IMG/VR virus record: IMGVR_UViG_3300009605_000161
Coordinates: 1 to 22,682 of that record
Source: a virus
Length of the DNA stretch: 22,682 nt
Direction: 5' to 3' (one strand)
Numbering within the stretch: position 1 is the stretch's first letter; the number at the start of each line of letters is the position of its first letter. The notes beneath the pieces are model-generated. The model ran no database searches, was not told the DNA's origin, and was given only the letters and a program-made list of their open reading frames with translations. A program made the translations under genes and the position numbers. This document shows, in pieces, positions 3,012-20,738 of this stretch.

Positions 3012-3021
3012 GAGTTCTATT

Positions 3022-3141
3022 ATGGATAATGATAGAGATATTAGTAAAGAAGAATTGAGAGAATGGGAAGAGTGGGCAAAAGAGTGGATTGCCGAACAAC
3101 AAGAAGAAGACAATAAAAAGGAAGAAAGCAATAAAGAATGA
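3022..3141 (+). CDS. 39-residue charged small protein between helicase and primase
   Basis: A short ORF starting at ATG 3022, with AGGAG at 3010-3014 and a good spacer, and ending in an ATGA overlap with the primase start. The frame is open further upstream into the helicase gene, but the ribosome binding site favours 3022. The peptide is almost wholly charged and helical (SKEELREWEEWAKEWIAEQQ), followed by a Glu/Lys-rich tail. Such a helix could be a replisome adaptor or coupling peptide, but that is a guess. No family is recognised. Confidence 0.7.
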   Translation: MDNDRDISKEELREWEEWAKEWIAEQQEEDNKKEESNKE

Positions 3142-4193: not shown

Positions 4194-4366
4194 ATAAAAA
4201 GAAAGTAAAAGAAGCAATTAAATGCCTTCTCCAGTATGGCTGGATGTGGGGATACCCAAAGCACATTTCAAAAGACGGTTGGGATGCTTTACACACTTTC
4301 TATAAAGTAGAATTGAATGGTGGAAAAGAGTTTGTTCCAGATAAAACAAACAGAGCAACGACATGA
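4190..4366 (+). CDS. 58-residue protein with GTG start between primase and thyX
   Basis: Starts with GTG 4190, overlapping the primase stop (GTGA), and ends TGA 4364-4366, overlapping the thyX start (ATGA). Both junctions are 4-base overlaps, the usual coupling in this operon, which is the main reason to accept it. The peptide has a basic N-terminus (NKKKVKEAIKCLLQYGW), an aromatic middle (WMWGYPKHISKDGWDALHTF) and a short C-terminal strand and tail. There is no signal peptide or membrane segment and no family I recognise. Confidence 0.72.
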   Translation: MNKKKVKEAIKCLLQYGWMWGYPKHISKDGWDALHTFYKVELNGGKEFVPDKTNRATT

Positions 4367-5022
4367 AAATTAAAGTTTTAGATAATGGACATGTTGAATA
4401 TGCTGACCATATGGGAAACGACCTAACAGTTGTTAATGCCGCTAGAGTATCTTTCGCAAACCACAAAGAAGAGTTTGAAGAGAAAGATGAAAAACTCATT
4501 CGTTATCTTGCAAAGCATAATCATTGGACTCCATTTGCACATCCACAAATTACAATTCGTGTTAAAGCACCAGTTCCCATTCGTGTTCAATTTTTTAAGC
4601 ATAAGCAAGGGTTTGTAGAGAACGAAATCAGCAGACGATATGTTTCGTTTACTCCAGAATTTTATCATCCTGAATGGAGAGGTAAACCAGAAGGAAGTGC
4701 AAAGCAAGGTTCGGGTGAAAAATTATCTTGGAGTTTGGAAAGAGATTCTTGGGATTATTCTTTAGATGAATTATATGATAATGCTTTACATTTATATGAA
4801 CGAATGATTGATGAAGGCGTTGCACCAGAGCAAGCACGATTCGTTCTCCCGCAAGCAATGTATACGGAATGGTATTGGACGGGTTCTCTTGCTGCATATG
4901 CAAGATTTTACAAACAACGAACTGATCCTAACGCCCAATGGGAAGTTCAACAATATGCTAAAGCAGTTGGAAAAATTATTGAGCCGTTATTTCCAGTTTC
5001 TTGGAACGAACTAATCAAATAA
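4363..5022 (+). CDS. thyX: Flavin-dependent thymidylate synthase
   Basis: Converts dUMP to dTMP using FAD and methylene-tetrahydrofolate; supplies dTTP for phage replication. The 219 residues contain the N-terminal HNHWTPFAH (52-60), the ThyX signature region ending NEISRRY at 87-93, and a C-terminal helix with QARFVLPQAMYTEW and FYKQR. The signature's usual RHR is KHK here (79-81), a conservative change of the kind I associate with phage ThyX proteins. It overlaps the upstream small gene by 4 bases and is followed by nrdJ after 29 bases. Assignment is firm. Confidence 0.93.
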   Translation: MKIKVLDNGHVEYADHMGNDLTVVNAARVSFANHKEEFEEKDEKLIRYLAKHNHWTPFAHPQITIRVKAPVPIRVQFFKHKQGFVENEISRRYVSFTPEFYHPEWRGKPEGSAKQGSGEKLSWSLERDSWDYSLDELYDNALHLYERMIDEGVAPEQARFVLPQAMYTEWYWTGSLAAYARFYKQRTDPNAQWEVQQYAKAVGKIIEPLFPVSWNELIK

Positions 5023-5030
5023 TATAAATA
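5023..5030 (+). promoter_or_regulatory. T4-type late promoter box before nrdJ
   Basis: TATAAATA, an exact match to the T4 late consensus, begins directly after the thyX stop codon. Initiation about six bases downstream would give a leader of roughly 16 bases that still holds the AAAAGGA ribosome binding site (around 5035-5041) of nrdJ. Chance occurrence of an 8-mer in AT-rich DNA is possible. Confidence 0.5.
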
Positions 5031-5051
5031 CCCTAAAAGGAATAGTAGATA

Positions 5052-6974
5052 ATGAATTACATTAGTGACATCCTGCCCGAAGAATTTCTTCTGCCATATA
5101 AGACGAAGAAACCAAATTGGGGATACAACGGACTTGGTGAAATTGTATACAAGCGAACATATTCTCGCTTGAAGGAGGATGGCACAAATGAAGAATGGTG
5201 GGAAACTATCGCAAGGTGTATTAATGGCGCACAACATATTGGTGCCGACTATACAAAAAAAGAAGCACAACAATTATTCGAATATATGTTTGAACTCAAA
5301 TGCAATTTTGCAGGCAGAATGCTTTGGCAATTGGGCACTTCAACAGTCGATAGGTTTGGTGGGAATTCTCTTCTGAATTGTTGGGGTGTTTGCATTCGTG
5401 ATATTGATGATTTCTGTTTCATCTTTGAGAACTTAATGCTTGGTGGTGGGGTAGGATTCTCTATTCGAAAAGAAGACATCCACGAACTCCCCCGTGTTAA
5501 AGAAGGCGTTTCTGTTAAACACAAAAAGAGAAACGATGCAGATTTTATTGTTCCTGATTCCCGCGAGGGGTGGGTAAAACTTCTCAAGAAAATTCTTAAA
5601 TCTTATTTCTATACTGGCCAATCTTTTACCTATTCTACTTTACTTGTTCGTTCATCGGGAGAACGCATCAAGGGATTTGGCGGGAAAGCATCTGGGCCTG
5701 GGATTCTTATTGATGGTATTGAAAATATTTGTGAAGTAATTCAAGAACGAGAAGGCAAAAAGTTACGGTCCATTGATGTTTTAGACATTTGTAATATTAT
5801 TGGGTCTGTCGTTGTTGCAGGTAATGTTCGTAGGTCTGCTGAAATTGCAGTTGGTGATCCTGATGATTATCTATTCCTTCGTGCAAAACGATGGGACTTA
5901 GGAAACATTCCCAACTGGCGTTCTATGTCAAACAATACAATCTATGCAGATTCTTACGATCATATCAGCGATGCAGTATGGAAAGGATATGATGGTTCTG
6001 GAGAGCCATATGGTTTCTTTAATCTTCCCCTCGCACAAAAGTATGGAAGGCTAAAGGACAAGAAAAAAGACAGATGTGAAATTGTAAATCCCTGTGCAGA
6101 AATTCTTCTGGAATCTTATGAGTGTTGTAACCTTTCAGAAATCTATTTGAATAATATTACCTCTAAGGCGGAACTTAAAGATTGTGCAAGGTTGCTCTAT
6201 AAAACACAAAAGGCTATTTGTGCATTGCCATTTATTCATCCACAAACCGAAGATGTTGTTCACGATAATATGAGAATTGGTGTAGGAATTACAGGCATTT
6301 GTCAATCTCTCGACAAATTAGATTGGTTGGATGATTGTTACGAAAACCTTCGGGAGTATGATGAGAAATGGTCAGAGAAAAAAGGATATCCTGTAAGCAT
6401 TCGATTAACCACAGTAAAACCATCTGGAACGCTTTCTCTCCTTTCTGGAAGTACGCCTGGTGTTCATCCTGCATATGCTAATTATTTTATTCGAAGAGTT
6501 AGAATGTCTAGCAGTGACGATCTTGTTAATATGTGTAGAGAATCCAATTATCCAGTAGAGTATGCAAAAAGATTTGATGGAACAGAAGACCGCAGTACGG
6601 TTGTTATAGAGTTCCCTTGCCATATCAACGGAAAGACCATTCTTGCAAAAGATATGACGGCGGTAAAACAATTAGAACTTGTAAAGAAATTACAAACAGA
6701 TTGGTCGGACAATTCTGTTTCTGTAACTGTCTACTATCGCCTTGAAGAACTCGATGAAATTAAAGAGTGGATGGCAAAGAATTATGAGAAATCATTAAAG
6801 ACAGTAAGTTTTCTACTACACAACGAACACGGATTTGAGCAAGCGCCATATGAAGAAATTACTAAAGAAGAATATGAAAAAAGAGTTTCTAAAATAAAGC
6901 CAATGGAGAATATAGAAACGGGTGAGGTTTTGACCGAATTAGAGTGTGTTGGCGGTTCTTGTCCCATCCGATAA
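5052..6974 (+). CDS. nrdJ: Adenosylcobalamin-dependent (class II) ribonucleotide reductase
   Basis: Reduces ribonucleotides to deoxyribonucleotides with a B12-generated thiyl radical, oxygen-independently. The 640-residue chain resembles the monomeric triphosphate reductase type. Seen are SLLNCWGVC with C110, NPCAEI with radical-site C348 and E350, CNLSE with C359, the loop TVKPSGTLSLLSGSTPGVHP, and a C-terminal pair C632/C637 (CVGGSCPIR) spaced as in the Lactobacillus leichmannii enzyme. All cysteines needed for catalysis and re-reduction are present. It is about 100 residues shorter than that enzyme (739 aa). It follows thyX, so dNTP supply genes sit together. The host must provide or import cobalamin. 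Confidence 0.92.
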   Translation: MNYISDILPEEFLLPYKTKKPNWGYNGLGEIVYKRTYSRLKEDGTNEEWWETIARCINGAQHIGADYTKKEAQQLFEYMFELKCNFAGRMLWQLGTSTVDRFGGNSLLNCWGVCIRDIDDFCFIFENLMLGGGVGFSIRKEDIHELPRVKEGVSVKHKKRNDADFIVPDSREGWVKLLKKILKSYFYTGQSFTYSTLLVRSSGERIKGFGGKASGPGILIDGIENICEVIQEREGKKLRSIDVLDICNIIGSVVVAGNVRRSAEIAVGDPDDYLFLRAKRWDLGNIPNWRSMSNNTIYADSYDHISDAVWKGYDGSGEPYGFFNLPLAQKYGRLKDKKKDRCEIVNPCAEILLESYECCNLSEIYLNNITSKAELKDCARLLYKTQKAICALPFIHPQTEDVVHDNMRIGVGITGICQSLDKLDWLDDCYENLREYDEKWSEKKGYPVSIRLTTVKPSGTLSLLSGSTPGVHPAYANYFIRRVRMSSSDDLVNMCRESNYPVEYAKRFDGTEDRSTVVIEFPCHINGKTILAKDMTAVKQLELVKKLQTDWSDNSVSVTVYYRLEELDEIKEWMAKNYEKSLKTVSFLLHNEHGFEQAPYEEITKEEYEKRVSKIKPMENIETGEVLTELECVGGSCPIR

Positions 6975-7017
6975 AATTTAAATTTTTTATTGACACCTGC
7001 GTTTAATATAGTATAAT
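6971..7017 (+). promoter_or_regulatory. Strong host-type sigma70 promoter with AT-rich upstream element
   Basis: Perfect -35 TTGACA at 6990-6995 and perfect -10 TATAAT at 7012-7017 with a 16-base spacer. Directly upstream lies an A/T tract (6971-6989, containing the palindrome AAAATTTAAATTTT at 6973-6986) that looks like an UP element. Transcription should begin near 7024 and read through the leader into the microprotein and porin genes. Because it matches host sigma70 consensus, it should work early without phage factors. Confidence 0.82.
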
Positions 7018-7035
7018 AAGAGGTTAATAGAAATA

Positions 7036-7398: not shown

Positions 7399-8550
7399 AT
7401 GAGTAAGAAAAAGTGGACAATTTATGGTGCTATTGCCGCAGCCGTTCTGGTTGCTGCAATTGCGACACCCGTACTTGCAGATGAGCCTTCATATGAAGAC
7501 CTCACCGCTCGTTTGGATGCCGCAGAAGCACGAATTGCAGAATTGAACAAGTCTGAACCATCAGAGATGGATATCGCCAGAGCAAATGCCACTAAGGCAC
7601 TTGTTCGTGATGTTCTTGCTGATGCAGATGCTCGTTCAATGATGCAAGGCAACGGAAGCCCTGTTACAGTAAATGTACACGGATTTGTACAATCTCGCTA
7701 CACCTATAGTGGTGGTGGTGATGACGAAGCCAATCACGGTTTCGGTCTTCCCCGCGCCCATCTTGAACTTTCTGGAGACCTCTATAATTGGGGTTATGTA
7801 GTAAGTGGACAGTGGAGCGAAGGAGGAGAGTTTGACCTTTTGGATGCTTATGCAGAAGGTGGACTCTTTGGTGGAAATGTCCGTGTAGGACAATTCAAAG
7901 CACCGTTTATGCGTGAGGTACTTGTCTATCAGGCAGATACTCTTATGACAGAGCGTTCAATCGTGTCCAACCAGTTTGGTCAGGGTCGTTCGCAAGGTGT
8001 TCAGTATAGTCGTGATTTTGGTGTGGTAGATTTTGCTGCCGCTTACACCGATGGTTTCGATACTGCCAATGGCGCAGGAGTTCAGAACGGTCAGGCATTT
8101 ACTGCCCGTGCTGGATTCGATGTTGCTGATTGGTGGAATGTGGGTGCTGCCGTTTCATATAACGATTTGGTAGACACCGACTACACCACCTACACCCTTG
8201 ATACTAATGTATCATTCGGTGGAGGTCTTGACTTGACTGCTGCCTATGTTGCAACTAGCGGTGACGCTGGAGACAATTGGGGAACAACAGTTCAAGCAGG
8301 GTATCATTGCATGGATAACCTACAAGGTTTCGTTGCATATGAGTATGGTGAATTAGAAGATGTTTCAGAGAATCTTAGCATTGCAACTGTTGGTGCCAAT
8401 TATTGGTTCAACGATAATGTCAAGTGGACAACCGAATTAGGTTATGCACTAAATGGCATTAATGGTGCTTGGGATTTGGGAGAAACAGGTTGGCGTGCTG
8501 GTGACAGTGGCGAATATGTTATTCGTACCCAACTTCAACTTACTTTCTGA
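7399..8550 (+). CDS. Outer-membrane beta-barrel porin (phosphate-selective porin O/P-like)
   Basis: Predicted secreted 383-residue porin. Residues 1-27 are a clear signal peptide (basic MSKKK, hydrophobic core, cleavage after VLA). A short coiled coil follows (DLTARLDAAEARIAELNKSE), as in trimeric porins with N-terminal coils. From about residue 90 the chain is alternating amphipathic strands starting VNVHGFVQSRYTYSGG, rich in aromatic, Gly and Asp residues. It ends in QLQLTF, with the terminal Phe expected for BAM-directed outer-membrane proteins. The pattern resembles the OprP/OprO family, but substrate cannot be read. It sits in a cassette with its own sigma70-type promoter and terminator, unlike the phage genes around it, which suggests a moron-like acquisition from a bacterium. 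Confidence 0.85.
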   Translation: MSKKKWTIYGAIAAAVLVAAIATPVLADEPSYEDLTARLDAAEARIAELNKSEPSEMDIARANATKALVRDVLADADARSMMQGNGSPVTVNVHGFVQSRYTYSGGGDDEANHGFGLPRAHLELSGDLYNWGYVVSGQWSEGGEFDLLDAYAEGGLFGGNVRVGQFKAPFMREVLVYQADTLMTERSIVSNQFGQGRSQGVQYSRDFGVVDFAAAYTDGFDTANGAGVQNGQAFTARAGFDVADWWNVGAAVSYNDLVDTDYTTYTLDTNVSFGGGLDLTAAYVATSGDAGDNWGTTVQAGYHCMDNLQGFVAYEYGELEDVSENLSIATVGANYWFNDNVKWTTELGYALNGINGAWDLGETGWRAGDSGEYVIRTQLQLTF

Positions 8551-8584
8551 TTTTATGGGAATACCCTTCCCGCCGTCAGGCAGA

Positions 8585-8618
8585 CAGCCCCTCGACTCAG
8601 GTCGGGGGGTTGTTTTTT
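8585..8618 (+). terminator. Strong intrinsic terminator after porin
   Basis: A 12-bp GC-rich stem (8585-8596 with 8601-8612, including G-U pairs), a TCAG tetraloop at 8597-8600, and six T at 8613-8618. It lies 34 bases after the porin stop and closes the cassette begun at the promoter near 6990. Confidence 0.9.
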
Positions 8619-8627
8619 ATACATATA
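8616..8627 (+). promoter_or_regulatory. Candidate phage promoter element TTTATACATATA
   Basis: This 12-mer also occurs at 20771-20782. Here it ends 33 bases before ATG 8661; there it ends 34 bases before ATG 20817. Both genes are structural-type genes that begin a new transcription block, so a shared phage-specific promoter is a reasonable inference. Only two copies support it. Confidence 0.4.
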
Positions 8628-8660
8628 TTATAGAAAATACTCAAACTAAGGGAGTTTAAA

Positions 8661-9521
8661 ATGACAATACAAGATAGAATCTGGGCTTCAAACATCAGAA
8701 ATCTTCCCAACACGGAAGATTGCCCCCGTATCACCCTTCAAGAAACCCATATGATTGGCAAAACAGTAGTAATTGGTACAAAAGCAGGCACCGTAACAAA
8801 AGAAGTTGAAGATAATGCTACTGGTGAAGTTTATGAAGTAGAACTAGAAGATGGAACTACCATTACTGCCGGCGCTCACGAAATGGAAGTTGCCGACACC
8901 GCCGCTGGAACAGGTAAACCTTCAACAGATATTCAAGCAGAAGTCCCTTCGCTGGTTCAAGCAGAAGGAACTGGAAGTGGTGATGGGTGTGGTGAAGCAA
9001 CCATTCCAGACCCAGAAGCAGAAGAAGAAGAGGAAGAAGTCGAAGAAGGAAAAGACGAAGAGTATGAAAAGTTCTTTAAGGCAGCCCTTAAGAAGTTTGG
9101 TGTTGATTCGCCAGCAGACCTAGAAGGCGACAAGAAGAAAGAGTTCTTTGACTATGTTGATAAGAACTGGAAGGGCGAGAAGAAAGAATCCGTTGAATTC
9201 TCTGAAGCAGAAGTCGCCCACTTCGAAAGCATTTTAAAAAAAAAAGTAGTGGATGAAGCAGAGTCAATTCCTTTAGTCCGAACAGGACAAGGTACATCTC
9301 AAGTAGATACACATCCCAAGCGTAAAGACGGTAAGGTAGAAAGACTTTATCAAGCGAAAAATGGACGAGAACGGTCTGCATTAGTTGGTGCATTACAAAG
9401 GCCCGAGTTTAAAACTACCACACGATATAATATTCCAACAAAAGGAACTAATGTAGAGGTAGTTTTCGATAACGACAAAGTGCGTGTTGCTTATGAAAAA
9501 AGAATGAAAATTAAGTCTTAA
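8661..9521 (+). CDS. Acidic phage structural/scaffold-type protein
   Basis: A 286-residue protein, AAGGGAG upstream. Residues about 30-76 form a small beta domain (GKTVVIGTKAGTVTKEV ... VYEVELEDGTTI). A low-complexity Glu linker follows (about 115-135), then a helical module FFKAALKKFGVDSPADL ... KKKEFFDYVDKNW that I associate with T4-like marine phage structural proteins, then a basic C-terminus. Acidic low-complexity linkers are common in prohead core proteins, so a head-assembly role is plausible but unproven. A run of ten A at 9236-9245 lies in frame and is a possible slippage or sequencing-error site. The gene stands alone between two terminators. Confidence 0.75.
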   Translation: MTIQDRIWASNIRNLPNTEDCPRITLQETHMIGKTVVIGTKAGTVTKEVEDNATGEVYEVELEDGTTITAGAHEMEVADTAAGTGKPSTDIQAEVPSLVQAEGTGSGDGCGEATIPDPEAEEEEEEVEEGKDEEYEKFFKAALKKFGVDSPADLEGDKKKEFFDYVDKNWKGEKKESVEFSEAEVAHFESILKKKVVDEAESIPLVRTGQGTSQVDTHPKRKDGKVERLYQAKNGRERSALVGALQRPEFKTTTRYNIPTKGTNVEVVFDNDKVRVAYEKRMKIKS

Positions 9522-9544
9522 ATTAAAAAAACATAAATTAAAAA

Positions 9545-9572
9545 AAGCCCCCTCCGAAAAGGGGGCTTCTTT
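9545..9572. terminator. Bidirectional terminator between convergent genes
   Basis: Arms 9545-9553 and 9560-9568 form a 9-bp stem (AAGCCCCCT/AGGGGGCTT) with loop CCGAAA. It is followed by a T-rich tract on the plus strand and preceded by six A on the left, so it also works on the minus strand. It separates the plus gene ending at 9521 from the minus gene ending at 9588. Confidence 0.88.
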
Positions 9573-9587
9573 ATTGTGTTATTTATT

Positions 9588-11324
9588 TTATTTGCCTGGG
9601 CTCCAATTAATTGAAGCATCAGTAAGGATAGAAGTTTGGTCGGCTTGTGCTGTTGTTGTACCTACTCTTGCACCCCGTACCAATCTAATATCACAATTGT
9701 TTTCTAGTTGTAGGAGTCCGTTGTGTATACCACCAATACCTAAAGTATGCCCTGCAATTCCAAACCCAATCCAAGGTTCGTTTTGTGGGTCATGTCCCTG
9801 TACGATGGTTTTAGCATTAATTTCTCCATTCAGAATTCTAAACGAAATGGATGCAGTAATTCCATTTGCCTCTGGATACAAGTATCCAGAATAACCATAA
9901 AGATTAGAAATAGTTGCACCACCGTTACTTGGATGTGTTAAGTCAATCATTACGGTGTTGTAATTTTTCTTCTTGTCACCAGTTACCATACTAAGATTGT
10001 AAAATGGATTGGTGTCTTGCATATAAAGATGCCCGACAGAAACTCCGTGATATGAAGATTGGCCAGGTCCTGATGAACCACTTATACCATCTCGGTCAGC
10101 AGTAAATACTACAGCCGCCATACCTTTCACTGTGCCCCAAGCGCCCGAGTCAATATCAACAGGATCAACAGGTTCGGGGGGACATTCGGCAGAATCTGTA
10201 AAATGCCAACCCCCCTTTGAAGGACAGAAGGTTTTGCTGTACGGCGGCGGCCAGAAGTACTGTGCTGTGATTCCAGAATTTTCTGTAGGATAAATTTTAG
10301 CAGTATCTACATGACACGCTACTGTTAACGGTGCTTCGTTAAAGAATTTATAGCGATACTTTGAACCAACGATTAGAGATGGAAGGGAAGTACGAGAAGT
10401 GATGAGTGTTTGAGCAATTCGTTCAGAAGTATCTTTAAAGATAGTAGCAATATCATAGTTAACTGTATCGCCCTTCATTTTGAACCATCCCCTGCCAGCC
10501 TCGGAGGATGCGGGCCACTGACTCCAATCTGCATTCCTGTTTATTGTAACATTATCAAAAGTGGCACCTCTCTTTAATTCGTCTTGATAGAACGAATAGT
10601 GAGCGGCACCATTAATATAAAGATTATCTGTTCTGAAATTAGAAGTAAATGTTCTTTCTCTTGTCCAATCAAACATGTGCCACCAACTGTCGTGGATAGG
10701 AGCAGGTTCTTTAATAGAATTATCGATAAATTGTGCAACATACAATCCTAGACCCTCATTTGGTCCAGATGCACCATATGTAGAGCAATAACCGTTTACC
10801 ATATTGATACCTAATCTAGCACCAGTTCCACGGTTGGTTCCAAATACTCCATCACTTAAATCTCTTGCGTATAATACTTCAGCATATCCATCTTCGATTG
10901 TAAGTTTTTCTAATTTTCCTGCGGTGCTATTACCGACGAACCATTTATTGTCGTTGGTAGTCCCACCAAACAAACACTCACTGTGTGGCCATCTTTCGCC
11001 TGTTGTGCCTGTTGCGCCGTCAAGAAAAGCATTTTCGATTTTATCAAATATTACTTTGTCTCCTGCTTTAGGCCAACTGGGTGGTGTGATGAAGTGATTC
11101 TGGTTCGGGTTGCCGCCCGTATCTCCGGCTTGGTCCCATTCATCATTATAGTCACCAGTCTGTCCAATGTCTATTGCCCAGTTTGCTGCATTATTCCAGT
11201 TGTTTGTAGAATTAACGAAATATTTTTCCGAAATCGTTAACGATGGCTGTAATGTATTTGCGTTGGCCATAGTCACGCCGGAACTTGGACCTGTCTGGCC
11301 TTTCCAGTAATATGTTTGTCCCAT
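9588..11324 (-). CDS. Large beta-rich virion/adhesin-type protein
   Basis: A 578-residue protein rich in Gly, Asn, Thr and Trp, with no signal peptide or membrane segment. The N-terminus has an aromatic pattern (TYYWKGQTG ... NNWNNAANWA ... GDKVIFD) seen in phage structural and adhesin-like proteins; the remainder looks like irregular beta structure, consistent with a tail fibre, spike or decoration protein. AGGGGAAAG precedes ATG 11324. It is a single-gene minus-strand unit, bounded by the bidirectional terminator and by a divergent control region shared with the protease gene. The exact virion role cannot be read. The codon pattern resembles its neighbours. Confidence 0.7.
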   Translation of the reverse strand: MGQTYYWKGQTGPSSGVTMANANTLQPSLTISEKYFVNSTNNWNNAANWAIDIGQTGDYNDEWDQAGDTGGNPNQNHFITPPSWPKAGDKVIFDKIENAFLDGATGTTGERWPHSECLFGGTTNDNKWFVGNSTAGKLEKLTIEDGYAEVLYARDLSDGVFGTNRGTGARLGINMVNGYCSTYGASGPNEGLGLYVAQFIDNSIKEPAPIHDSWWHMFDWTRERTFTSNFRTDNLYINGAAHYSFYQDELKRGATFDNVTINRNADWSQWPASSEAGRGWFKMKGDTVNYDIATIFKDTSERIAQTLITSRTSLPSLIVGSKYRYKFFNEAPLTVACHVDTAKIYPTENSGITAQYFWPPPYSKTFCPSKGGWHFTDSAECPPEPVDPVDIDSGAWGTVKGMAAVVFTADRDGISGSSGPGQSSYHGVSVGHLYMQDTNPFYNLSMVTGDKKKNYNTVMIDLTHPSNGGATISNLYGYSGYLYPEANGITASISFRILNGEINAKTIVQGHDPQNEPWIGFGIAGHTLGIGGIHNGLLQLENNCDIRLVRGARVGTTTAQADQTSILTDASINWSPGK

Positions 11325-11456: not shown

Positions 11457-12224
11457 ATGGTACTTAGGAGAACTGCATATTTCTTAGCAACTTTGTTATG
11501 TTTAGTAAGTTGCACTTCAACTCTACCTTTACCTACACCTCCCCAACAACAAAACCCAATACCAGAAGTCTTTGATCCTTTTGTTGCCACAAACAATGAA
11601 AACGATCCCTATCCTTTCGTTGGTTCTATTCATAGAGAAAATGGAAGTTTAGTAGGCGGCGGAGTTCTTATTGCACCCGATGTAGTTCTAACTGCTGGAC
11701 ATTGTATCGATAATAAAAAAATAGACTCAGTATATTTTGGAGAAATGTGTGTTCCTGTTTCCTCTACTCTTCTTCATCCTGAATATGAAATGTATGGAAG
11801 ACCTGTAAATGATATCGGCATTATTTTTCTAGAATATCCAGTAGATATTAACCCCATTTCCCTACATAATAATAGAGTATTGTGGAGATTCAGTGATATA
11901 ACAGTTATCGGATATTCGTTCGGATATAAAAAATACAGCAAGCCAAGTGTATTTCAATATTACGGAACAATACTTGAAGACATAAACGAAATAAAGTTTC
12001 TACCAAGACGGGCAACAATCTGGTTTGGTGATTCTGGCGGCGCAGTAATTGCTACACTAGAAGGAGAAGAAAGGTTAGTAGGAATAATAACATCATTCTT
12101 GACAGATGAATTTGGAATAGTCGAGTGTTCGGCTACACGAATTAAATTTTATAGAGGGTGGATTGAGGAGGTTCTAAATGAACAAGGATTGGACGGACGG
12201 GGTAGCCGAATGGGTGAACAATAA
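11457..12224 (+). CDS. Trypsin-like serine protease, predicted lipoprotein
   Basis: A 255-residue S1-family protease with a full catalytic triad: H82 in TAGHC, D119 in NDIGIIFL, and S193 in GDSGGAV. The N-terminus MVLRRTAYFLATLLCLVSCT is a lipoprotein signal with lipobox LVSC (lipidated Cys19), followed by a Pro/Gln-rich linker (LPLPTPPQQQNP). The mature enzyme should therefore be anchored in the host envelope, facing the periplasm or surface. The barrel spans about 50-235. A late promoter box lies just upstream, so it is probably made late. Possible roles are cutting host envelope proteins before lysis or blocking receptors; phage origin of such an enzyme is unusual. Confidence 0.88.
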   Translation: MVLRRTAYFLATLLCLVSCTSTLPLPTPPQQQNPIPEVFDPFVATNNENDPYPFVGSIHRENGSLVGGGVLIAPDVVLTAGHCIDNKKIDSVYFGEMCVPVSSTLLHPEYEMYGRPVNDIGIIFLEYPVDINPISLHNNRVLWRFSDITVIGYSFGYKKYSKPSVFQYYGTILEDINEIKFLPRRATIWFGDSGGAVIATLEGEERLVGIITSFLTDEFGIVECSATRIKFYRGWIEEVLNEQGLDGRGSRMGEQ

Positions 12225-12337: not shown

Positions 12338-12772
12338 ATGGAAGAAAACAATGGACACTGGAATAATTTACCTGATGACTTTAACTTTGATGATTGGTTT
12401 GGGTTTGTATACTGTATTACTCGTAAAGACACACAGAGAAAATACATCGGCAAAAAACAAACCAGTTCGTATCGCCGTAAGAAAGTCAAAGGCAGAACAA
12501 ACCGCAAAAAAGTAATTTCCGAATCTAACTGGAAAAAATATACTGGTTCTTGCGACGAACTCAATCAAGAAATAGAAGAACTTGGAAAAGATAAGTTCAC
12601 CTTCGAAGTCTTGAAACTATGCAAAACCAAAGGTGAACTTACTTTTTCAGAAGTAGAATATCAATTCAAATATGATGTTCTTACTTCTATACTAGAAAAT
12701 GGTGAGAGAGAATATTACAATTCTAATATTATGAGTCGTTGGTTCTCTTCTTCGTCTTACCTAAATTCTTAA
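12338..12772 (+). CDS. GIY-YIG family nuclease-like protein (SegE-like)
   Basis: A 144-residue protein with the paired strands of a GIY-YIG domain: GFVYCI at 22-27 and KYIGKK at 35-40. A basic stretch follows (SYRRKKVKGRTNRKK), then SNWKKYTGSCDELNQEIEEL, KFTFEVLKLC, GELTFSEVEYQF and a C-terminal IMSRWF. This matches the short SegE-type GIY-YIG proteins common in T4-like phages, which include homing endonucleases. R45/R46 and E105 or E107 are candidates for the catalytic Arg and Glu. No ribosome binding site is visible. Its last 44 bases overlap the convergent minus-strand gene. Confidence 0.8.
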   Translation: MEENNGHWNNLPDDFNFDDWFGFVYCITRKDTQRKYIGKKQTSSYRRKKVKGRTNRKKVISESNWKKYTGSCDELNQEIEELGKDKFTFEVLKLCKTKGELTFSEVEYQFKYDVLTSILENGEREYYNSNIMSRWFSSSSYLNS

Positions 12773-13685
12773 AATTATTTTTAATCTTAATCTGTGAAAC
12801 TATCTTCTTCGTCATTGGACTTTGCAATTCACTAGCAAAACCATTTCTACCAAAAATTTCTTGTCGCTCTTCGGTATCTAGATGCTCTTTCATCTCTTCT
12901 ATGAGTTCCACAATTTCTTCAATTGCTTTTTCGTATCGGCTGCCATTAACAAGCATCCAGCCAACTACTGCAATTGTTGCCACGAATCCAACAATTAAAA
13001 CAATCAACCCAACAGTAGCAATTTCTTCAAGATAGTATTGCGATGCGGCTGCAAACCCTACTGTCAATATACCTATTGCAAGTAAAACTGCACCAAGCCT
13101 ACCATTCACCCAAAAGGCAATGAAGGCACCGCCCACCAACATTCCGAACCCCATTACAAAGAATAGAGTAATATAATTATGGAGATTTTCTAGGGCTTCT
13201 CTGCGAACTTCCCTGTCGGAAGTCTCGTAGTCCGCAACTAGGTCCTCTAGTTCCTCGATCTGACCGACGGCTGCGCCAACTCTGTCGTTCGCCTGATCCA
13301 AATCTTCCAACGCTTCTTCGATCCGAACCTGTTCTAGCGCCGCATCGTCCACATGTTCCTTGATTGTTTCTGCGGAATTCTCGATGTTGTCCAGAGTTGG
13401 GTCGATGTTGTAATTGTGGTCGTCTGGAACGAGTGCTATCTCGTCTAGAATGGAATTCGCTTCCTCGTCTATGTTCTCCAGTGTCCCTGCTATCGAGTCT
13501 GTAGCGTCTGTGATTTCCTGAGTCTGCTCCGTCTGCTCTCTCACGCTGTCCACCACAGTTGAAGCGGTGTTCTCTGGAGTTCCATCGTGAGTCATCTGTT
13601 GGAGTGCTTCGCAACCCGCGCCGCTTACGAGAGTCATCAGTACGAGCATCTTCGTTAGGCGACTGGCTCTTTCTCCATTGAGCAA
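12729..13685 (-). CDS. Lipoprotein with periplasmic coiled coil and three C-terminal membrane helices (spanin-like layout)
   Basis: The open frame runs from 13766, but I place the start at TTG 13685. It has AAGGA close upstream and gives a compact signal peptide (basic n-region, then KMLVLMTLVSGAGC) with lipobox GAGC. ATG 13721 and 13649 are alternatives. After the lipidated Cys comes a long acidic coiled coil of about 140 residues, then three membrane segments (FFVMGFGMLVGGAFIAFWV; LGAVLLAIGILTVGFAAAS; IATVGLIVLIVGFVATIAVV), then a charged cytoplasmic tail. An outer-membrane lipid anchor plus coiled coil plus inner-membrane helices is the layout of a unimolecular spanin, though those have one helix. 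It is largely nested in the gene starting at 13839, and most of it uses GC-rich codons. Confidence 0.7.
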   Translation of the reverse strand: MLNGERASRLTKMLVLMTLVSGAGCEALQQMTHDGTPENTASTVVDSVREQTEQTQEITDATDSIAGTLENIDEEANSILDEIALVPDDHNYNIDPTLDNIENSAETIKEHVDDAALEQVRIEEALEDLDQANDRVGAAVGQIEELEDLVADYETSDREVRREALENLHNYITLFFVMGFGMLVGGAFIAFWVNGRLGAVLLAIGILTVGFAAASQYYLEEIATVGLIVLIVGFVATIAVVGWMLVNGSRYEKAIEEIVELIEEMKEHLDTEERQEIFGRNGFASELQSPMTKKIVSQIKIKNNFKNLGKTKKRTNDS

Positions 13686-13839
13686 ACCGTTCCTTTGCTT
13701 CTTCTGGTGAAATTTTGCCATCGGCGATTGCCGTTCTAAATCTCTGTCCAATCTTTTCTCTTTCATTATTTACCTCCGAGTCCTGTGCAACAATTGGTGT
13801 TGCTAATAATAATACTGCTAATGCAATTAGTGTTTTCAT
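13177..13839 (-). CDS. Secreted small protein; real start, uncertain C-terminus overlapping the lipoprotein gene
   Basis: ATG 13839 overlaps the upstream stop (ATGA) and has CGGAG before it, so the start is sound. Residues 1-19 are a signal peptide (MKTLIALAVLLLATPIVA, then QDSE). Residues about 22-60 look like genuine protein (EREKIGQRFRTAIADGKISPEEAKERFAQWRKSQ). After about residue 70 the chain becomes Arg/Ser/Gly-rich and lies in the +1 frame across the coding region of the lipoprotein. That part may be only a stop-free shadow in GC-rich DNA, or a real basic tail. A frameshift joining the two frames is a third option. The nested layout recalls Rz/Rz1 spanin pairs. Confidence 0.55.
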   Translation of the reverse strand: MKTLIALAVLLLATPIVAQDSEVNNEREKIGQRFRTAIADGKISPEEAKERFAQWRKSQSPNEDARTDDSRKRRGLRSTPTDDSRWNSREHRFNCGGQRERADGADSGNHRRYRLDSRDTGEHRRGSEFHSRRDSTRSRRPQLQHRPNSGQHREFRRNNQGTCGRCGARTGSDRRSVGRFGSGERQSWRSRRSDRGTRGPSCGLRDFRQGSSQRSPRKSP

Positions 13840-14900
13840 TTTTTATCTCCGTGAATTAAATAGGCCATTACACCTGTTGTTTTGTCTTGGATAACAATTG
13901 GTGCGCCAGGATTCTTATGGGCATAATCACGAATCTCTTGGTTATCAATGTTTTCCATATTTAATTTTCTGTTCCATCGTTCATATCGTTTTCTGCCGTG
14001 CATACAAGTATGATAATCGTCGCTGTTTAATTCAAATACTTCAGCACCAGCAAACTTTTTACGCTTTTTCTTTTTCTTTTTTCCTAGTATCGGGTCATAT
14101 CCCTGAACTGGACCTTCCCCACCAAAATGCGGAGACATTCCACCACCTACTGCATTCGTGGGCGTGGATTCATCAACGGATTCTTTGATTTTACCATACT
14201 GTGCAATTCTCTTTGCATCTCTATACATGTGCATATCAACAGAATCAACCACTTCATACCGATACTTAATTTTCCCACCACCATGATGATGTGTGTGCTG
14301 AACAACATAGTATGTTCTATCAGGACTTTGATTTGCAAGTTTCTGTGCAGATTTCTTTACTGGGTTTATTTCATCGCTTGCGAGAGTCAATGCTTCATCC
14401 AGTTCAACAGATTCATTTACAAGTTTACCTCTGCTCTTTTTCATATATTTCTTGATACCAGCACGCCACTTGAATTGAACACCCGTAACTGTTACTTTGT
14501 TCCCAACCCGATCACCTATACCGATAGAAGAATTTTCAATATCATAATCAAATTGCGCCGCTTTTCGATCATCAGGGAATTCAAATGTCAAGGTTTCCAT
14601 CGCCCTTTCTTCTACTTCTTCGCCTGGCGTATCTTCACGATAAGTATCGTCTAGTTCGTCGGTTGCTTCCTCGCCCGCACCACCTTCTTCAATTAAGAAT
14701 GGACGAATCTGAGAATCGTGCATTTCAACCTGCGTGCCATCTTGAAACTTTACTTTATAGACAGTATCATAACGACTAGTTCCACCAATAGAAACAACCT
14801 TGACAATTCTAGCCCTACGGTCACCCATCTGGATTGATTTGCCAAGCAAAATAGTTTCTATGATTGGCAGTTCTGTACTAAATCGTTTGAATTTTTTCAT
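13836..14900 (-). CDS. T4-like phage structural-type protein with small beta domain
   Basis: A 354-residue protein starting MKKFKRFSTELPIIETIL. Residues about 18-70 form a small beta domain (VYKVKFQDGTQVEMHDSQI) that recalls the one in the 8661-9521 protein, followed by an acidic linker. The middle holds a His/Gly-rich strand region (YYVVQHTHHHGGGKIKYRYE). A loop, TPTNAVGGGMSPHFGGEGP, of a kind I associate with T4-like structural proteins follows. After a Lys run (GKKKKKKRKK), the C-terminal domain has AGAEVFELNSDDYHTC and GRKRYERW. Head or core assembly is likely, but the exact role is unknown. It starts 23 bases inside the preceding gene, with AAGG upstream. Confidence 0.72.
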   Translation of the reverse strand: MKKFKRFSTELPIIETILLGKSIQMGDRRARIVKVVSIGGTSRYDTVYKVKFQDGTQVEMHDSQIRPFLIEEGGAGEEATDELDDTYREDTPGEEVEERAMETLTFEFPDDRKAAQFDYDIENSSIGIGDRVGNKVTVTGVQFKWRAGIKKYMKKSRGKLVNESVELDEALTLASDEINPVKKSAQKLANQSPDRTYYVVQHTHHHGGGKIKYRYEVVDSVDMHMYRDAKRIAQYGKIKESVDESTPTNAVGGGMSPHFGGEGPVQGYDPILGKKKKKKRKKFAGAEVFELNSDDYHTCMHGRKRYERWNRKLNMENIDNQEIRDYAHKNPGAPIVIQDKTTGVMAYLIHGDKK

Positions 14901-16169: not shown

Positions 16170-18233
16170 TTATATTTCTAACAATTCAAAGCCAAAATTG
16201 ACATCTATTGATTCCAACTGTCGTTGGGGTTTCCTTTGTTCTGATAAAGTAAATGTCTTATTCACATTCACGCTATAATTAAGTGTTTCTAAAAATCTCT
16301 TACCTATAAGAACCAAGTATGTGTTGTCATCTCGGTCGCTTAAGTTAAAGAGAACATCTTTGTATTCTTTCTTGCCAAACTTTATATCAAATTTGACTAG
16401 ATATCGTTCTTCCCATTGGTCTGAACCGATATTAATTTTTTGAGTTTGTACGATTGGTTTAGTAAACTTCTTTCCAAGAATACTAAAGGACACATTCTTG
16501 CCCTTTGCTTTTACATTATCTGAATGAATAGAATTTACTGAACCATTCCCTGTATCTACTTTGGCTTTTAATTTACCAACACCCTTGACTGTGATGTATT
16601 CTACATAACCAATTTCCTTGGAAGTAAATTTCCAATTCTCTTTGTTAAGAATATGGTCGAGAACATAACCAACCAACTCTTCGCCGCTAAGTTCTTTTCC
16701 TTCGTGGCCTGGATGATATCCCATATACGGTGCGGCGCCAGAACCTGGCGAACCATTCACCTCTAGAATATAATGTTTTCCGTTGTGTGTGATATGGTCA
16801 ACACCTGCATAGTAACAACCAGATATCTTATATGCTTTTCTAATAAGGTCTTTTTCTTCTTGGCTCAACTTGTAGGGAGCAGTGTCATTACCCAATGCTT
16901 TATTGGTTCTAAATTCTTTCCCACCAGAAGATTTGATTCTTTTTACTGAAGCACAAATCTTACCATCTAGGACAAGGGTACGGACATCGTGTTTAATCTC
17001 CATATATTCCTGAAGGATAATCTCTGCTTCGTGCTTCCACAAGGACTGTAGAACGGATTTAAGGGACTCATAGGACTCAATTTTCGAAACTCCGATACCT
17101 TCAGCACCTGTAATCGTTTTTATGATAACAGGGAACTTGCCCCCGATCTTTTCAAGAGCAATGTCAATCGAATCTTCGTTATTCACAAAGGCTGTTCGTG
17201 GAGATGAAATTTGATTTTGTTCAAGTGCAAGTGCAGTAACCATTTTGTTCTGGCAAAATTGCATAGACTCAAGACTGTTTACCATAAACATTCCAACTTC
17301 CTGTAGCGTTTTTACCATACCCGTACCAGCATTATCAAGAATAGCCCCGCCGCGAACCAACGCAACGGTGTTGTCTATTTTTAGATTAATATTCTTTCCG
17401 TCGCCGCCATAATTATGAATAGTAATTTCGTTATCTTCCATATCCTTGTCTACAATAAATGCGTGGTCAGTATGCACGGCAAAGAAAGATACACCTTTCT
17501 TTTTACATACTTTTGCCAATCTTTCAATGGTATCAGACTTCTCATTATCTGTAGAAGATTTGGTAATAGCAATAACCGTTGGAAGGCTTTTGTCTTTTGC
17601 TTCCTCTAAACTAATCAGTCTATTCCAATCTTCTTCTAGTGATTCTCGCACACCCATTGCAGTTCTCAATTTTTTGTATAGTTGTTTTGCAATTATTTTG
17701 TTTCCTACGCCCAATTCAAAACTTTCATAGTCTCCCGCAACTGCGGCCGCTCTCATCTTTGAAGCAGACATTCCTTCGACTCCTTCTGCATCGGGGTCTC
17801 TCTGTCCTGCACTTCTTACTTCAAAGTGGTCAAATTGATATCCATCTGGTCCAACATATTTTGAAATACTTTTTTCTAATTCTGCTACTCTATCACCACC
17901 AACGACAAGAATAACTTTTTTATATCCTTCATCACTTAATTTCTGCATCATATAAAACGGATTTATTACAGACCTATCGTCTATAACATTTACTTTCCTG
18001 CCAAATATCTTTCTCATAAAACTAATTTTGTCTCTGGGCTTTAAAGGGTCTCTATTGTCGCCTGCCTTTCGACTTGGGTAAATACGATGCTCTGCTCTTT
18101 CCCTTCGGGCATTGTCAACCACCGCATCAACTAGTTTTTGATGACCAATTGTAGGTGGTTGAAAGCGCCCGAAGGTTACAACGATAGCCTTCGTTTTGTC
18201 TTCGTTCAGAAAATCTCTGACCGATTTACTCAT
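16170..18233 (-). CDS. Triple fusion: nucleotidyltransferase + RimK-like ATP-grasp ligase + RimB-like aspartic protease
   Basis: A 687-residue enzyme in three parts. (1) About 15-195: HIGH-superfamily nucleotidyltransferase, with VVTFGRFQPPTIGH (TIGH 28-31) and GMSASKMRA (164-172). (2) About 215-530: RimK-type ATP-grasp amino-acid ligase, with nucleotide loop IIKTITGAEGIGV (K372), LQEYMEIKHDVRTLV, YYAGVDHI and metal residues in ILEVNGSPG (E491, N493). (3) About 545-675: RimB/DUF785-like retropepsin fold, with KAKVDTG (D560) and LIGKRFLE. RimK adds glutamates to a protein C-terminus (ribosomal S6 in E. coli) and RimB acts with it; here both sit in one chain. The N-terminus MSKSVRDFLNEDK resembles a T4 capsid-targeting peptide. 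ATGA overlap with the upstream small gene. Substrates unknown. Confidence 0.87.
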   Translation of the reverse strand: MSKSVRDFLNEDKTKAIVVTFGRFQPPTIGHQKLVDAVVDNARRERAEHRIYPSRKAGDNRDPLKPRDKISFMRKIFGRKVNVIDDRSVINPFYMMQKLSDEGYKKVILVVGGDRVAELEKSISKYVGPDGYQFDHFEVRSAGQRDPDAEGVEGMSASKMRAAAVAGDYESFELGVGNKIIAKQLYKKLRTAMGVRESLEEDWNRLISLEEAKDKSLPTVIAITKSSTDNEKSDTIERLAKVCKKKGVSFFAVHTDHAFIVDKDMEDNEITIHNYGGDGKNINLKIDNTVALVRGGAILDNAGTGMVKTLQEVGMFMVNSLESMQFCQNKMVTALALEQNQISSPRTAFVNNEDSIDIALEKIGGKFPVIIKTITGAEGIGVSKIESYESLKSVLQSLWKHEAEIILQEYMEIKHDVRTLVLDGKICASVKRIKSSGGKEFRTNKALGNDTAPYKLSQEEKDLIRKAYKISGCYYAGVDHITHNGKHYILEVNGSPGSGAAPYMGYHPGHEGKELSGEELVGYVLDHILNKENWKFTSKEIGYVEYITVKGVGKLKAKVDTGNGSVNSIHSDNVKAKGKNVSFSILGKKFTKPIVQTQKINIGSDQWEERYLVKFDIKFGKKEYKDVLFNLSDRDDNTYLVLIGKRFLETLNYSVNVNKTFTLSEQRKPQRQLESIDVNFGFELLEI

Positions 18234-18346
18234 CTATTCCAAGGTGCTTTTGCTTTAATCCAATTCCATAGTGGAACGCCAATCAAGGCTCCGCCCACGA
18301 AACATAGAACGCTCCACCACACTGTACCTAAAACTGCTAATGTCAT
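18230..18346 (-). CDS. 38-residue single-helix membrane protein
   Basis: Starts ATG 18346 with AAGGAG just upstream and ends in an ATGA overlap with the triple-fusion gene. The peptide is one membrane helix (LAVLGTVWWSVLCFVGGALI) followed by a tryptophan/lysine-rich end (PLWNWIKAKAPWNR), giving an N-out or C-in topology by the positive-inside rule. Perfect coupling signals on both sides make it a credible gene despite its size. Function unknown; it could anchor or regulate a neighbouring protein. Confidence 0.75.
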   Translation of the reverse strand: MTLAVLGTVWWSVLCFVGGALIGVPLWNWIKAKAPWNR

Positions 18347-18361
18347 ATCAGTTCTCCTTTT

Positions 18362-19516
18362 TTAAACTGTTTTTAATTGCTGTAACCTTTTCTCTGGTAT
18401 ATTTAGACCAGATATTATGGTATACAACCTTAAACTATCTTTTCCATCCTCATAAATACCCCGATGCAGAGTTGCATTTGGACATAACGAAGATAGCGTA
18501 TCGAATCCATACGATAAACTATCCATTAATCCTGGCGTATTTTCCATAATATCCTTACCGCCAATTGCCACACAGGCGGCAACACTAGAGTCTGAAAGTT
18601 CTACATCAGTAAGAAGTGTCTTTTCAAGATTTGTCTTGATTGCACTTGATACCTTTTGTTCGTCATCAAACTCTTTTAATTTCGCTACACCCATAACCAT
18701 TACGCCACCACACCGCAAGACGCTGGAATAGTCTGTTGGGTCAAATGATGTATATGGTGATGGGTTGTTTGTGAGTACATTGAATACATGGAATAGACCA
18801 GAGATGGTATTATTAACTGTTGGCCAGAATTGTTTAACCGTTAATCCTTTATACATTCTTTCAATCTTGGAATTGTCAAGAATGATAAGAGGAGAAATGG
18901 TTTTTTCTTTTGCACATCCACCAACAACGCTCAACACTTCATGTGCATTTTTTGACACTACTGGTGAATTTGCTTCGCCTCTGGTTGGCAAAGACATAAC
19001 TACTCCAACTCGTTTTTCTGGATCGTCGTGCCCAATATACTTCATATATTTCTTGGCAGTTTCAATTAAAACGAGGACTGAACCACTTCCGCTGCCACCA
19101 CCAGCACCGACACAGACAAAAAGATGATCGACATTACTACCATAGACTCTTCGCATAAGATCGAATACATTTTGTTTATATTTGTTTGCCGCTTCATTGC
19201 CTTTATCCATATCCTTTCCTGCACCCTGTTCACCCACATCAAATAACATTTTTTGTTCGGCAGGCAATTCAAGAGTATCTAAATCGTGACGAGAAGTATT
19301 TACTGCAATACATTTTTTATATCCTCGTTCATAAAATGCTTTTGCAATTCTGCCACCACCTTGCCCAGAACCAATCCAAGCGAAGGTTTGAGAACCACCA
19401 GATTCGTCTTCTACCGCAGTTTCTTCATCTTCTGGAATTTCATAATCTTCCAAATCAATGTCTGGTATTTCTAAATCTGGAATTTCTGGAATTTGATTTT
19501 CTAATTCTTCGCTCAT
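18362..19516 (-). CDS. FtsZ/tubulin-superfamily GTPase
   Basis: A 384-residue filament-forming GTPase candidate. Residues 1-42 are an acidic tail of repeated EIPD-like units (EIPDLEIPDIDLEDYEIPED). The GTPase begins at about 45 (FAWIGSGQGGGRIAKAF). The tubulin signature is GAGGGSGSGS at 137-146. The T7 loop that completes the neighbour's active site reads FDPTD at 258-262 with both aspartates (D259, D262), so hydrolysis should work. Jumbo phages use the tubulin PhuZ to position DNA and capsids; this protein is not obviously that family and looks at least as close to FtsZ. AAGGA precedes the start. It lies between the ligase-like gene and the triple fusion. Confidence 0.85.
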   Translation of the reverse strand: MSEELENQIPEIPDLEIPDIDLEDYEIPEDEETAVEDESGGSQTFAWIGSGQGGGRIAKAFYERGYKKCIAVNTSRHDLDTLELPAEQKMLFDVGEQGAGKDMDKGNEAANKYKQNVFDLMRRVYGSNVDHLFVCVGAGGGSGSGSVLVLIETAKKYMKYIGHDDPEKRVGVVMSLPTRGEANSPVVSKNAHEVLSVVGGCAKEKTISPLIILDNSKIERMYKGLTVKQFWPTVNNTISGLFHVFNVLTNNPSPYTSFDPTDYSSVLRCGGVMVMGVAKLKEFDDEQKVSSAIKTNLEKTLLTDVELSDSSVAACVAIGGKDIMENTPGLMDSLSYGFDTLSSLCPNATLHRGIYEDGKDSLRLYTIISGLNIPEKRLQQLKTV

Positions 19517-19529
19517 TTATTTTTCCTTT

Positions 19530-20738
19530 TTATTTGTTCCAATTCTTAGGAACAGTAAAGTTTGCTTTACTAAATTCTAATCTATCTACTAATTTTAATA
19601 CTGTGTTACTTACTCTATCCACAGCAACAAAACCTTCTGGTGAAGTTACTCTAAATCCGTCAGCCGTCCTGATAAAAGTTCCTATTTCTTTTACCTGTTC
19701 AAGTTTCCGAATAATAAATACCTTCGCTTCCGCCAAGGCGGCGTGCAACGCAAAAATAGAATCCAGTTTTGTAGAATTCTTGCTTAAATATGCAAGTAAA
19801 TCTTTTTTGATTGTTTCTTTTCGCTCCTTTGCACTATCCGTCTTTAGCGTATCTATGGCTGCCTGCATTTTTGAGTCAATATAATTAATGAACCCAGCCG
19901 CAGAACCAACCTCTCCATCTCCCTGACGGATAAGGGCATTACCATAGATTTTTACCTCTGAAATAATCATAGGCTTACCACGCAGTGTATCAAGATATCT
20001 TTTTACACCGCCTGCTTGTCTCTTAATTTTTGCAATCAAAGAATTAATTGTGGACGATTCTGTACTTGTAAATGTTGCTGTACCCGAAGTGTCTCGAAAA
20101 TCGGCATCCTGAAACCAGACATCCCTAGTCTTTGCGAGAGAACCAACTCTAGGGTTGAAGGATGCTTTTAATCCTTTAATTGTCTTTCCTGTATATTTTG
20201 TGTGCCATACTACTCCTATCTTTGCATTAGTAATTGATTTCGCTGTATCTGAACCAGCGGGTACTGCATAGGTAATCGTATTCGGGGTAAAAGTAAGATA
20301 ATTCTCTCCGTCGATTTTTGTCGATGATGTATCATCTGTAAACATAATATCGCCTTGAAGAATTCCTCTAATACCCAATTTACCAAGGTACTTTAAAGCA
20401 ACTTTTAACTTGCTTGCTAATACAGCGGCGTGTCCGTGATTTTTGTCGATATCTGCATTCGTATAGTTGACTTTTGGGGTAACATTAAAAAGAGATTTTG
20501 TTGCCACAAAAAACTTTTTGGTTTCGGGGTGTATTCCTGCAAACACCGCAGGTGCGCCATCCCATTTAACGGTAACATTTACTCCTGATGATGCATTTCC
20601 ATGAAGCATTTCAGCCACTGATTCTAAAAAAGATATGGCTGTAGCAACACCTGAAGAACCTTCGTTCCACACAGTATCTTCAAGATGTTCCATATGAACA
20701 TTCTTCGATTCAGCAATAAACGTAGTAAATACCTTCAT
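19530..20738 (-). CDS. Ligase-like covalent nucleotidyltransferase candidate; conserved marine T4-like phage protein
   Basis: A 402-residue protein that I recognise as a conserved marine T4-like phage family without known function. In it I see motifs of the RNA/DNA ligase superfamily: KWDG at 58-61 (motif I, lysine nucleotidylation site) followed by APAVFAG; RGILQGDIMF at 124-133 (motif III-like); EGFVAV at 368-373 (motif IV-like); and LKLVDR at 381-386 (motif V-like). Their order is right, but the spacing between III and IV is long, with a helical insert near 285-355. The N-terminus MKVFTTFIAESK resembles the T4 internal-protein capsid-targeting peptide (MKTYQEFIAEA). First gene of the minus-strand operon. 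The ligase reading needs structure prediction. Confidence 0.68.
   Translation of the reverse strand: MKVFTTFIAESKNVHMEHLEDTVWNEGSSGVATAISFLESVAEMLHGNASSGVNVTVKWDGAPAVFAGIHPETKKFFVATKSLFNVTPKVNYTNADIDKNHGHAAVLASKLKVALKYLGKLGIRGILQGDIMFTDDTSSTKIDGENYLTFTPNTITYAVPAGSDTAKSITNAKIGVVWHTKYTGKTIKGLKASFNPRVGSLAKTRDVWFQDADFRDTSGTATFTSTESSTINSLIAKIKRQAGGVKRYLDTLRGKPMIISEVKIYGNALIRQGDGEVGSAAGFINYIDSKMQAAIDTLKTDSAKERKETIKKDLLAYLSKNSTKLDSIFALHAALAEAKVFIIRKLEQVKEIGTFIRTADGFRVTSPEGFVAVDRVSNTVLKLVDRLEFSKANFTVPKNWNK

Follow-up and report, generated by a model that had tools for sequence, protein, structure and literature searches.

Two enzymes encoded in a 22,682-nucleotide stretch of viral DNA (the window; IMG/VR record IMGVR_UViG_3300009605_000161) begin with N-terminal peptides that are probably capsid-targeting leaders of the T4 kind, by which the enzymes would be packaged in the head, cut, and ejected with the DNA. 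The window is the whole record, a fragment of an uncultured virus that has Kyanoviridae phages of marine bacteria as its best annotated relatives. The two enzymes are a 402-residue DUF6267 protein (19530..20738, minus strand), predicted to be an RNA-ligase-like nucleotidyltransferase, and a 687-residue fusion of NMNAT-like, RimK ATP-grasp and retropepsin-like domains (16170..18233, minus strand). Both open reading frames (ORFs) and their starts lie where a sequence-only reading of the window had placed them, and in both the first 10–12 residues fall outside the enzyme domains. Sequence comparison further indicates that marine T4-like phages place a T4-type head-targeting leader on many proteins unrelated to one another, a use of which we found no report among the open-access papers listed by our searches.

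The leaders and the T4 rule

In the T4 capsid-targeting sequence, residues 4 and 7 direct targeting and residues 8 and 10 direct processing, with cleavage after L/I-x-E (PMC9026906). The sequence-only reading had given the start of the T4 internal proteins, its role in packaging and its (I/L)-x-E cut; IpII and IpIII do both start MKTYQEFIAEA, and the remainder agrees with T4 genetics (PMC9026906). It had also seen an aromatic-spaced start and a fitting cleavage site on both window enzymes. For the DUF6267 protein this is exact, as its start, MKVFTTFIAE followed by SKNVHMEHLED, places F4, F7, I8 and E10 at the four key positions (leader at 20709..20738, minus strand; predicted cut after E10, new N-terminus S11). 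For the fusion it holds in part: the start, MSKSVRDFLNE followed by DKTKAIVVTFGRF, has its key residues V5, F8, L9 and E11 shifted by one, with V at the first of them (leader residues 1–11, 18201..18233, minus strand; predicted cut after E11, new N-terminus D12).

By itself the motif carries little weight and was rejected as evidence, because a loose T4-type regular expression also matches two other window proteins, UvsX and one that is NrdA-like (MNYISDILPEE), and these two matches we judged false. This expression matches 4 of the 28 window ORFs, and 32 of 11,752 internal start codons in eight genomes. What comparison of sequences confirms beyond chance is the conservation of positions 4, 7, 8 and 10 in 19 of 19 distinct DUF6267 leaders, the recurrence of the leader on unrelated families, and the outcome of a permuted-pattern control, all described below. 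A match in T4 gp61.4 was discounted, as its annotated start lies downstream. Separately, T4 gp61.1 (AF158101 18966-19130, minus strand), a 54-residue hypothetical protein, starts MKTFKEFIKED and is possibly an overlooked internal protein; it is encoded between gp41 and gp61, the gene neighbourhood of the cyanophage NMNAT locus.

Because the record of the window phage consists of the 22.7-kb window, N-termini were compared in relatives. A 134.8-kb relative (G001; 70% identity for DUF6267 and 78% for the fusion), a further genome (G002) and six named phages stand in for the full genome of the window phage. Start sequences of 67 DUF6267 and 18 fusion proteins were taken from loci L022–L108, of which L102–L108 re-sample contigs among the first 80. 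Among them, 26 distinct starts of DUF6267 and 5 of the fusion keep the leader pattern.

The DUF6267 protein

The 402-residue protein matches PF19782 over residues 13–398 (E = 2.8e-113; 379.5 bits against a cut-off of 27). DUF6267 leaders were chosen by homology alone, through their fixed distance to a conserved K-N-x-H block. The alignment used 19 of 31 rows, all distinct, the other 12 starting after the leader or differing in leader length. All 19 leaders are hydrophobic at positions 4, 7 and 8 and have E at 10, while positions 2, 3, 5, 6 and 9 are hydrophobic in 5–11%. Some other DUF6267 loci have longer leaders, which end likewise in L-T-E-A or L-H-E-A.

Homologs without a leader (MSKNTHLEHLEDD, MAKNTHLEHLEDD) have an N-terminus that coincides with the predicted cut. 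The S-WAM1 protein starts M-SKNTHLEHLEDD and that of S-SZBM1 M-AKNTHLEHLEDD, both exactly at the predicted cut of the window protein. In the structure model, the predicted local distance difference test (pLDDT) score is below 50 at residues 1–14 and at least 70 at 326 of the 402 residues. Judged by the leaderless homologs and by this model, the DUF6267 leader is a separable module, dispensable for the mature fold.

K58, D60 and G61, which make up motif I (K-x-D-G) of the RNA/DNA ligase-like nucleotidyltransferases, are invariant in 31 DUF6267 sequences, and QGD128-130, EGFV368-371 and K382 are also conserved. The last three may represent motifs III, IV and V of the ligases; no second lysine of motif V is evident. 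When the model was compared by VIA-align, RNA and DNA ligases filled rows 1–47, led by a Naegleria RNA ligase (Z 9.6, 182 residues, root-mean-square deviation 3.5), with T4 Rnl2 at Z 7.7. Foldseek gave weak matches (best E 0.044), and the DUF6267 profile found nothing relevant among PDB sequences. In our reading, DUF6267 is a ligase-like nucleotidyltransferase whose helical insert lies at about residues 225–346. No paper on DUF6267 was found in the open-access literature.

The NMNAT–RimK–retropepsin fusion

The triple fusion named in the sequence-only reading is real, as Pfam and PHROG profiles place three domains on it, all encoded on the minus strand. A cytidyltransferase/NMNAT-like domain spans residues 11–204 (17622..18203; phrog_3041 4.2e-51, phrog_395 2.2e-50), a RimK-like ATP-grasp domain residues 328–498 (16740..17252; PF08443 1e-31), and a retropepsin-like or RimB-like domain residues 554–662 (16248..16574; PF05618 4.9e-07). 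PF08443 lies above its own cut-off. The NCBIfam models are all under theirs: the RimK alpha-L-glutamate ligase model TIGR00768 scores 136.4 bits against a cut-off of 143.4, and RloA3 (4.8e-10) and RimB (3.9e-05) match the retropepsin-like domain below their curated cut-offs. RimK is the ribosomal S6 glutamate ligase, and RimB its retropepsin-like endopeptidase. The fusion resembles this pair in having ATP-grasp and retropepsin-like domains side by side; it differs in those scores and in being joined to an NMNAT-like domain with a leader.

Among six fusion homologs, T28-I-G-H31, S156-A-S-K-M-R161 and DTG are invariant, the first two matching the nucleotidyltransferase signatures (H/T)xGH and SxSxxR. 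The structure model of the fusion (mean pLDDT 51) was not used. L9-N10-E11 of the leader is invariant in the same six proteins, and relatives have starts in register with T4, MKKVFDFLNEA and MKKISDYLNEG; further starts are MSKSVRTFLNEE and MSKSVRDFLNED. A RimK–retropepsin homolog from Mosig, which is without the NMNAT domain, has a leader of its own, MQVQPFKNYLEEA. We also considered YerA41_066, an annotated structural protein homologous to the RimK–retropepsin part, and set it aside as support for the leader: its N-terminus has no such leader, so it speaks for virion association of this enzyme type and not for the leader.

Leader-bearing proteins in the virions of relatives

NMNAT-like proteins have been reported in the virions of four cyanophages: S-SM1 (PMC3037559; T4-GC190), S-SZBM1 (PMC9146016, Table 1), S-SCSM1 (PMC9602691) and S-CREM2 (PMC10665884, Table 3). 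All four carry the leader, starting MKKFSAFLNEA in S-SM1, MRFRQFIIEA in S-SZBM1, MKSFLQFLKEA in S-SCSM1 and MKNFSSFLTEA in S-CREM2. The DUF6267 proteins of the same four phages have none, and DUF6267 is absent from the three virion lists consulted, namely the S-SZBM1 table, the S-CREM2 table (gp87) and the flags in the S-SCSM1 record (gene 257). The undetected cyanophage DUF6267 proteins are the ones without a leader.

For S-CREM2, 50 of 52 listed virion proteins were present in our ORF set. A strict leader rule, M.{1,3}[FYL]..[FYW][LIVMF].E, finds 5 of these 50 and 2 of the 187 other ORFs (Fisher p = 0.0052). A broader rule gives 5/50 against 3/187 (p = 0.012) and our first regular expression 3/50 against 1/187 (p = 0.03); all three rules were written after some of the starts had been seen. 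The five virion proteins with a strict leader are ORF6 (SAM-lyase family, PF23780), ORF13, ORF14 (a kinase), ORF136 and ORF154 (the NMNAT). The S-CRM01 kinase, which is listed among virion proteins in PMC10665884, starts MISFDQFLSEK. As a separate observation, the S-CREM2 virion protein ORF12 (7704-10313, minus strand), annotated as a CRISPR-Cas9 nuclease, has F-A-S-F-M-A-E-A near residue 20; the nuclease name is doubtful because the protein has no Pfam match.

Relatives encode the predicted processing machinery. Of 17 records searched, 14 have a gp21-type protease (PF03420), among them G001 (E = 2.0e-42), and the three records without it are fragments of 34–52 kb. Scaffold proteins of six phages, one of which is T4, contain 1.4–3.0 [LI]xE[ASG] sites per 100 residues against 0.16–0.23 in other genes, so the specificity of the protease looks conserved. 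Homology and the mass spectrometry published for related phages thus lend good support to the packaging proposed in the sequence-only reading, the leader behaving in these comparisons as a capsid-targeting sequence would; that the window phage itself packages, cleaves and ejects the enzymes we infer.

Breadth of the leader

The leader proved not to be special to the two enzymes singled out at the start: both carry it, and so do many other protein families. A DNA pattern encoding M-K-[S/T..]-F-K-[Q/E]-[Y/F]-[I/L]-x-E was found in at least 120 stretches of IMG/VR, against 2 for the same codons permuted. Among the matches listed, 80 loci contained 85 leader matches, 82 of them preceded by an in-frame stop no more than 30 codons away, and 80 of the 85 proteins (at least 40 residues) clustered into 35 families. 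At the residue after the presumed cut, which the pattern leaves free, 14 of these 35 families have S, A or G, as compared with 19.8% of 1,200 background ORFs (p = 0.0047). A Pfam scan of ten carriers or neighbours returned ART-PolyVal (L274), HD_4 (L224), Zeta_toxin (L069) and S-AdoMet_lyase (S-CREM2), with a sub-threshold RNA_ligase match for L276 and no match for four of the ten.

On contig L069, eight consecutive ORFs (910-7026) bear near-identical leaders such as MKSFKQYITEA, one of them at an internal start. The proteins are otherwise unlike one another, with DUF6267 last, and together would form a cargo array. Similar arrays occur in L265, L091 and L079, where proteins that are unlike each other bear leaders of the type MKTFKQFITE, MKKFSEFITE or MKTFKQHLEE.

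A third protein of the window, of 354 residues (13836..14900, minus strand), is a candidate cargo resembling T4 IpI. It starts MKKFKRFSTELPIIET, with the predicted leader MKKFKRFSTELPIIE followed by T; the leader keeps F4 and F7, residue 8 is not L or I, and an I-I-E site comes later. T4 IpI (MKTFKEFTSTTTPVSTITEA) likewise has F4 and F7, neither L nor I at position 8, and a later I-T-E. Homologs of the 354-residue protein start MKKFDEFITEG, MKQFNEYITEG and, in G001, MKNFNDFKNELPIIET. The protein shares a GYDP-type stretch, GEGPVQGYDPILG, with S-CREM2 ORF160 and S-SCSM1_97, both virion proteins, and a PHROG family of major head proteins matches it weakly.

Proposed mechanism and alternatives

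As the head assembles, the leaders would use their residues 4 and 7 to dock the enzymes to the prohead core, and cleavage after (I/L)-x-E would be carried out by the gp21-type protease. Once mature, the enzymes would remain in the head beside the DNA and be ejected together with it at infection. After entry, judging by domain identity alone, DUF6267 may act in the sealing of nucleic-acid ends or in nucleotidyl transfer, and the fusion in chemistry related to nicotinamide adenine dinucleotide (NAD) and in peptide tagging. If they are ejected, the NMNAT could restore NAD and the ligase could seal nucleic acids, both at time zero.

Several observations weigh against this mechanism. We saw no virion detection of DUF6267 in any phage. 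S-SZBM1_191 (MKSFKSFLSES) and S-SCSM1_30 (MKTFKQFMSES) have good leaders and are missing from the accessible lists of detected proteins, and the S-CREM1 proteome of 14 proteins, as available, names no NMNAT among those detected. The authors of two proteomes themselves warn that detection may reflect carry-over after purification on caesium chloride (PMC10665884, PMC9602691). NMNAT homologs without a leader occur, for example MSKSVVFTFGRFN; together with the HTVC008M NMNAT, which starts MKTLKELLRKK, they indicate that packaging is not universal in the family. The fusion leader has an extra residue, its first key residue is V instead of an aromatic one, D follows the cut, and the leader fails the strict rule used for S-CREM2. 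Head genes, the protease included, were not seen in the 22.7-kb window. Finally, the match of the regular expression in T4 Alt was discounted and is not a real site, because Alt is cut at ITE-6, as well as at its C-terminus (PMC5694885, PMC9026906).

Could the starts of the two enzymes be ordinary N-termini that resemble T4 by chance? The false matches to UvsX and the NrdA-like protein and the register of the fusion start would suit this explanation, but it hardly accounts for a pattern conserved across 26 distinct DUF6267 and 5 distinct fusion starts in which the residues between the key positions vary freely, and we regard it as very improbable. A docking peptide for another assembly, such as a multi-enzyme complex or the replication machinery of the infected cell, would leave carry-over, as the proteome authors mention, to explain virion detection, and it agrees with the fact that many carriers are enzymes of metabolism or of nucleic acids, with genes close to those for replication. 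It does not predict that the pattern fits the T4 positions for both targeting and processing, E10 included, that five of the seven S-CREM2 ORFs with a strict leader are virion proteins, that leaderless DUF6267 enzymes of those same phages go undetected, or that S, A or G is enriched at residue 11 among the families listed; we consider it rather improbable.

It is also unlikely, in our view, that the leader packages proteins whose action is confined to the head or to its assembly, without ejection as effectors. In favour of this it can be said that ejection of these particular proteins is drawn by analogy, and that scaffold-core proteins of T4 are cut by the same protease (PMC9026906). The T4 proteins that bear this leader are, however, ejected (PMC9026906, PMC12373910), and carriers of ART-PolyVal, SAM-lyase, Zeta-toxin-like and HD_4 type suit action in the host more than in the head. 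Packaging, cleavage and ejection of the two enzymes thus remain the explanation that we favour.

Other genes of the window

Between the two predicted cargo genes lies a TubZ/FtsZ-like gene without a leader (18362..19516, minus strand; PF00091 5e-11). Among the loci compared, the tubulin signature occurs only in the window and the near-identical records L022/L106 and L023/L107, and G001 has no gene at this place. Elsewhere, two long ORFs of 345 residues (12729-13766) and 220 residues (13177-13839) overlap on the minus strand within 12729-13839. On the plus strand are a trypsin-like protease with a lipoprotein-like start (11457-12224; PF00089) and a phage-encoded 383-residue protein, porin-like by eye and with a signal-peptide-like start (7399-8550).

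Discussion

The closest known system is that of T4 IpI, IpII and IpIII, in which, as here, a 10-residue N-terminal leader with hydrophobic residues at 4 and 7 and an L/I-x-E cut precedes unrelated mature parts, the IpI variant matching the 354-residue protein (PMC9026906, PMC12373910). The T4 cargo consists of small restriction-enzyme inhibitors, whereas the window encodes large enzymes (402 and 687 residues) in the setting of Kyanoviridae-like marine phages. T4 Alt, an ejected ADP-ribosyltransferase, offers a parallel in being an enzyme, one that is packaged and has an N-terminal propeptide cut by gp21 (PMC5694885, PMC9026906), although the sites of its cuts differ. The virion NMNAT-like proteins and cytidylyltransferases of cyanophages are homologous to the first domain of the fusion and bear the leader, but are without the RimK and retropepsin domains. 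In the accessible parts of their reports, these virion enzymes are described without a loading or targeting mechanism (PMC3037559, PMC9146016, PMC9602691, PMC10665884). The leader would offer such a mechanism for the recurrent NMNAT-like virion proteins, together with a predicted mature N-terminus, and our results point to a ligase-like function for DUF6267.

To our knowledge, few of the proteins injected along with the DNA by phages that infect the most abundant marine bacteria have been described. Prediction of cargo from sequence through a short leader makes this question testable across uncultured viruses. We tentatively raise the possibility, which we hold to be somewhat short of an even chance, that marine T4-like phages possess a modular injected arsenal, in which one interchangeable head-targeting leader on dozens of unrelated proteins makes up a preloaded counter-defence kit. 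Its members might include the NMNAT–RimK–retropepsin fusion, the RNA-ligase-like DUF6267 protein, and SAM-lyase-family, kinase, ADP-ribosyltransferase, HD_4 and Zeta-like proteins. If so, NAD repair, the sealing of RNA or DNA ends and counter-restriction would begin at time zero of infection, and the leader would serve as a search key for the injected effectors of uncultured viruses.

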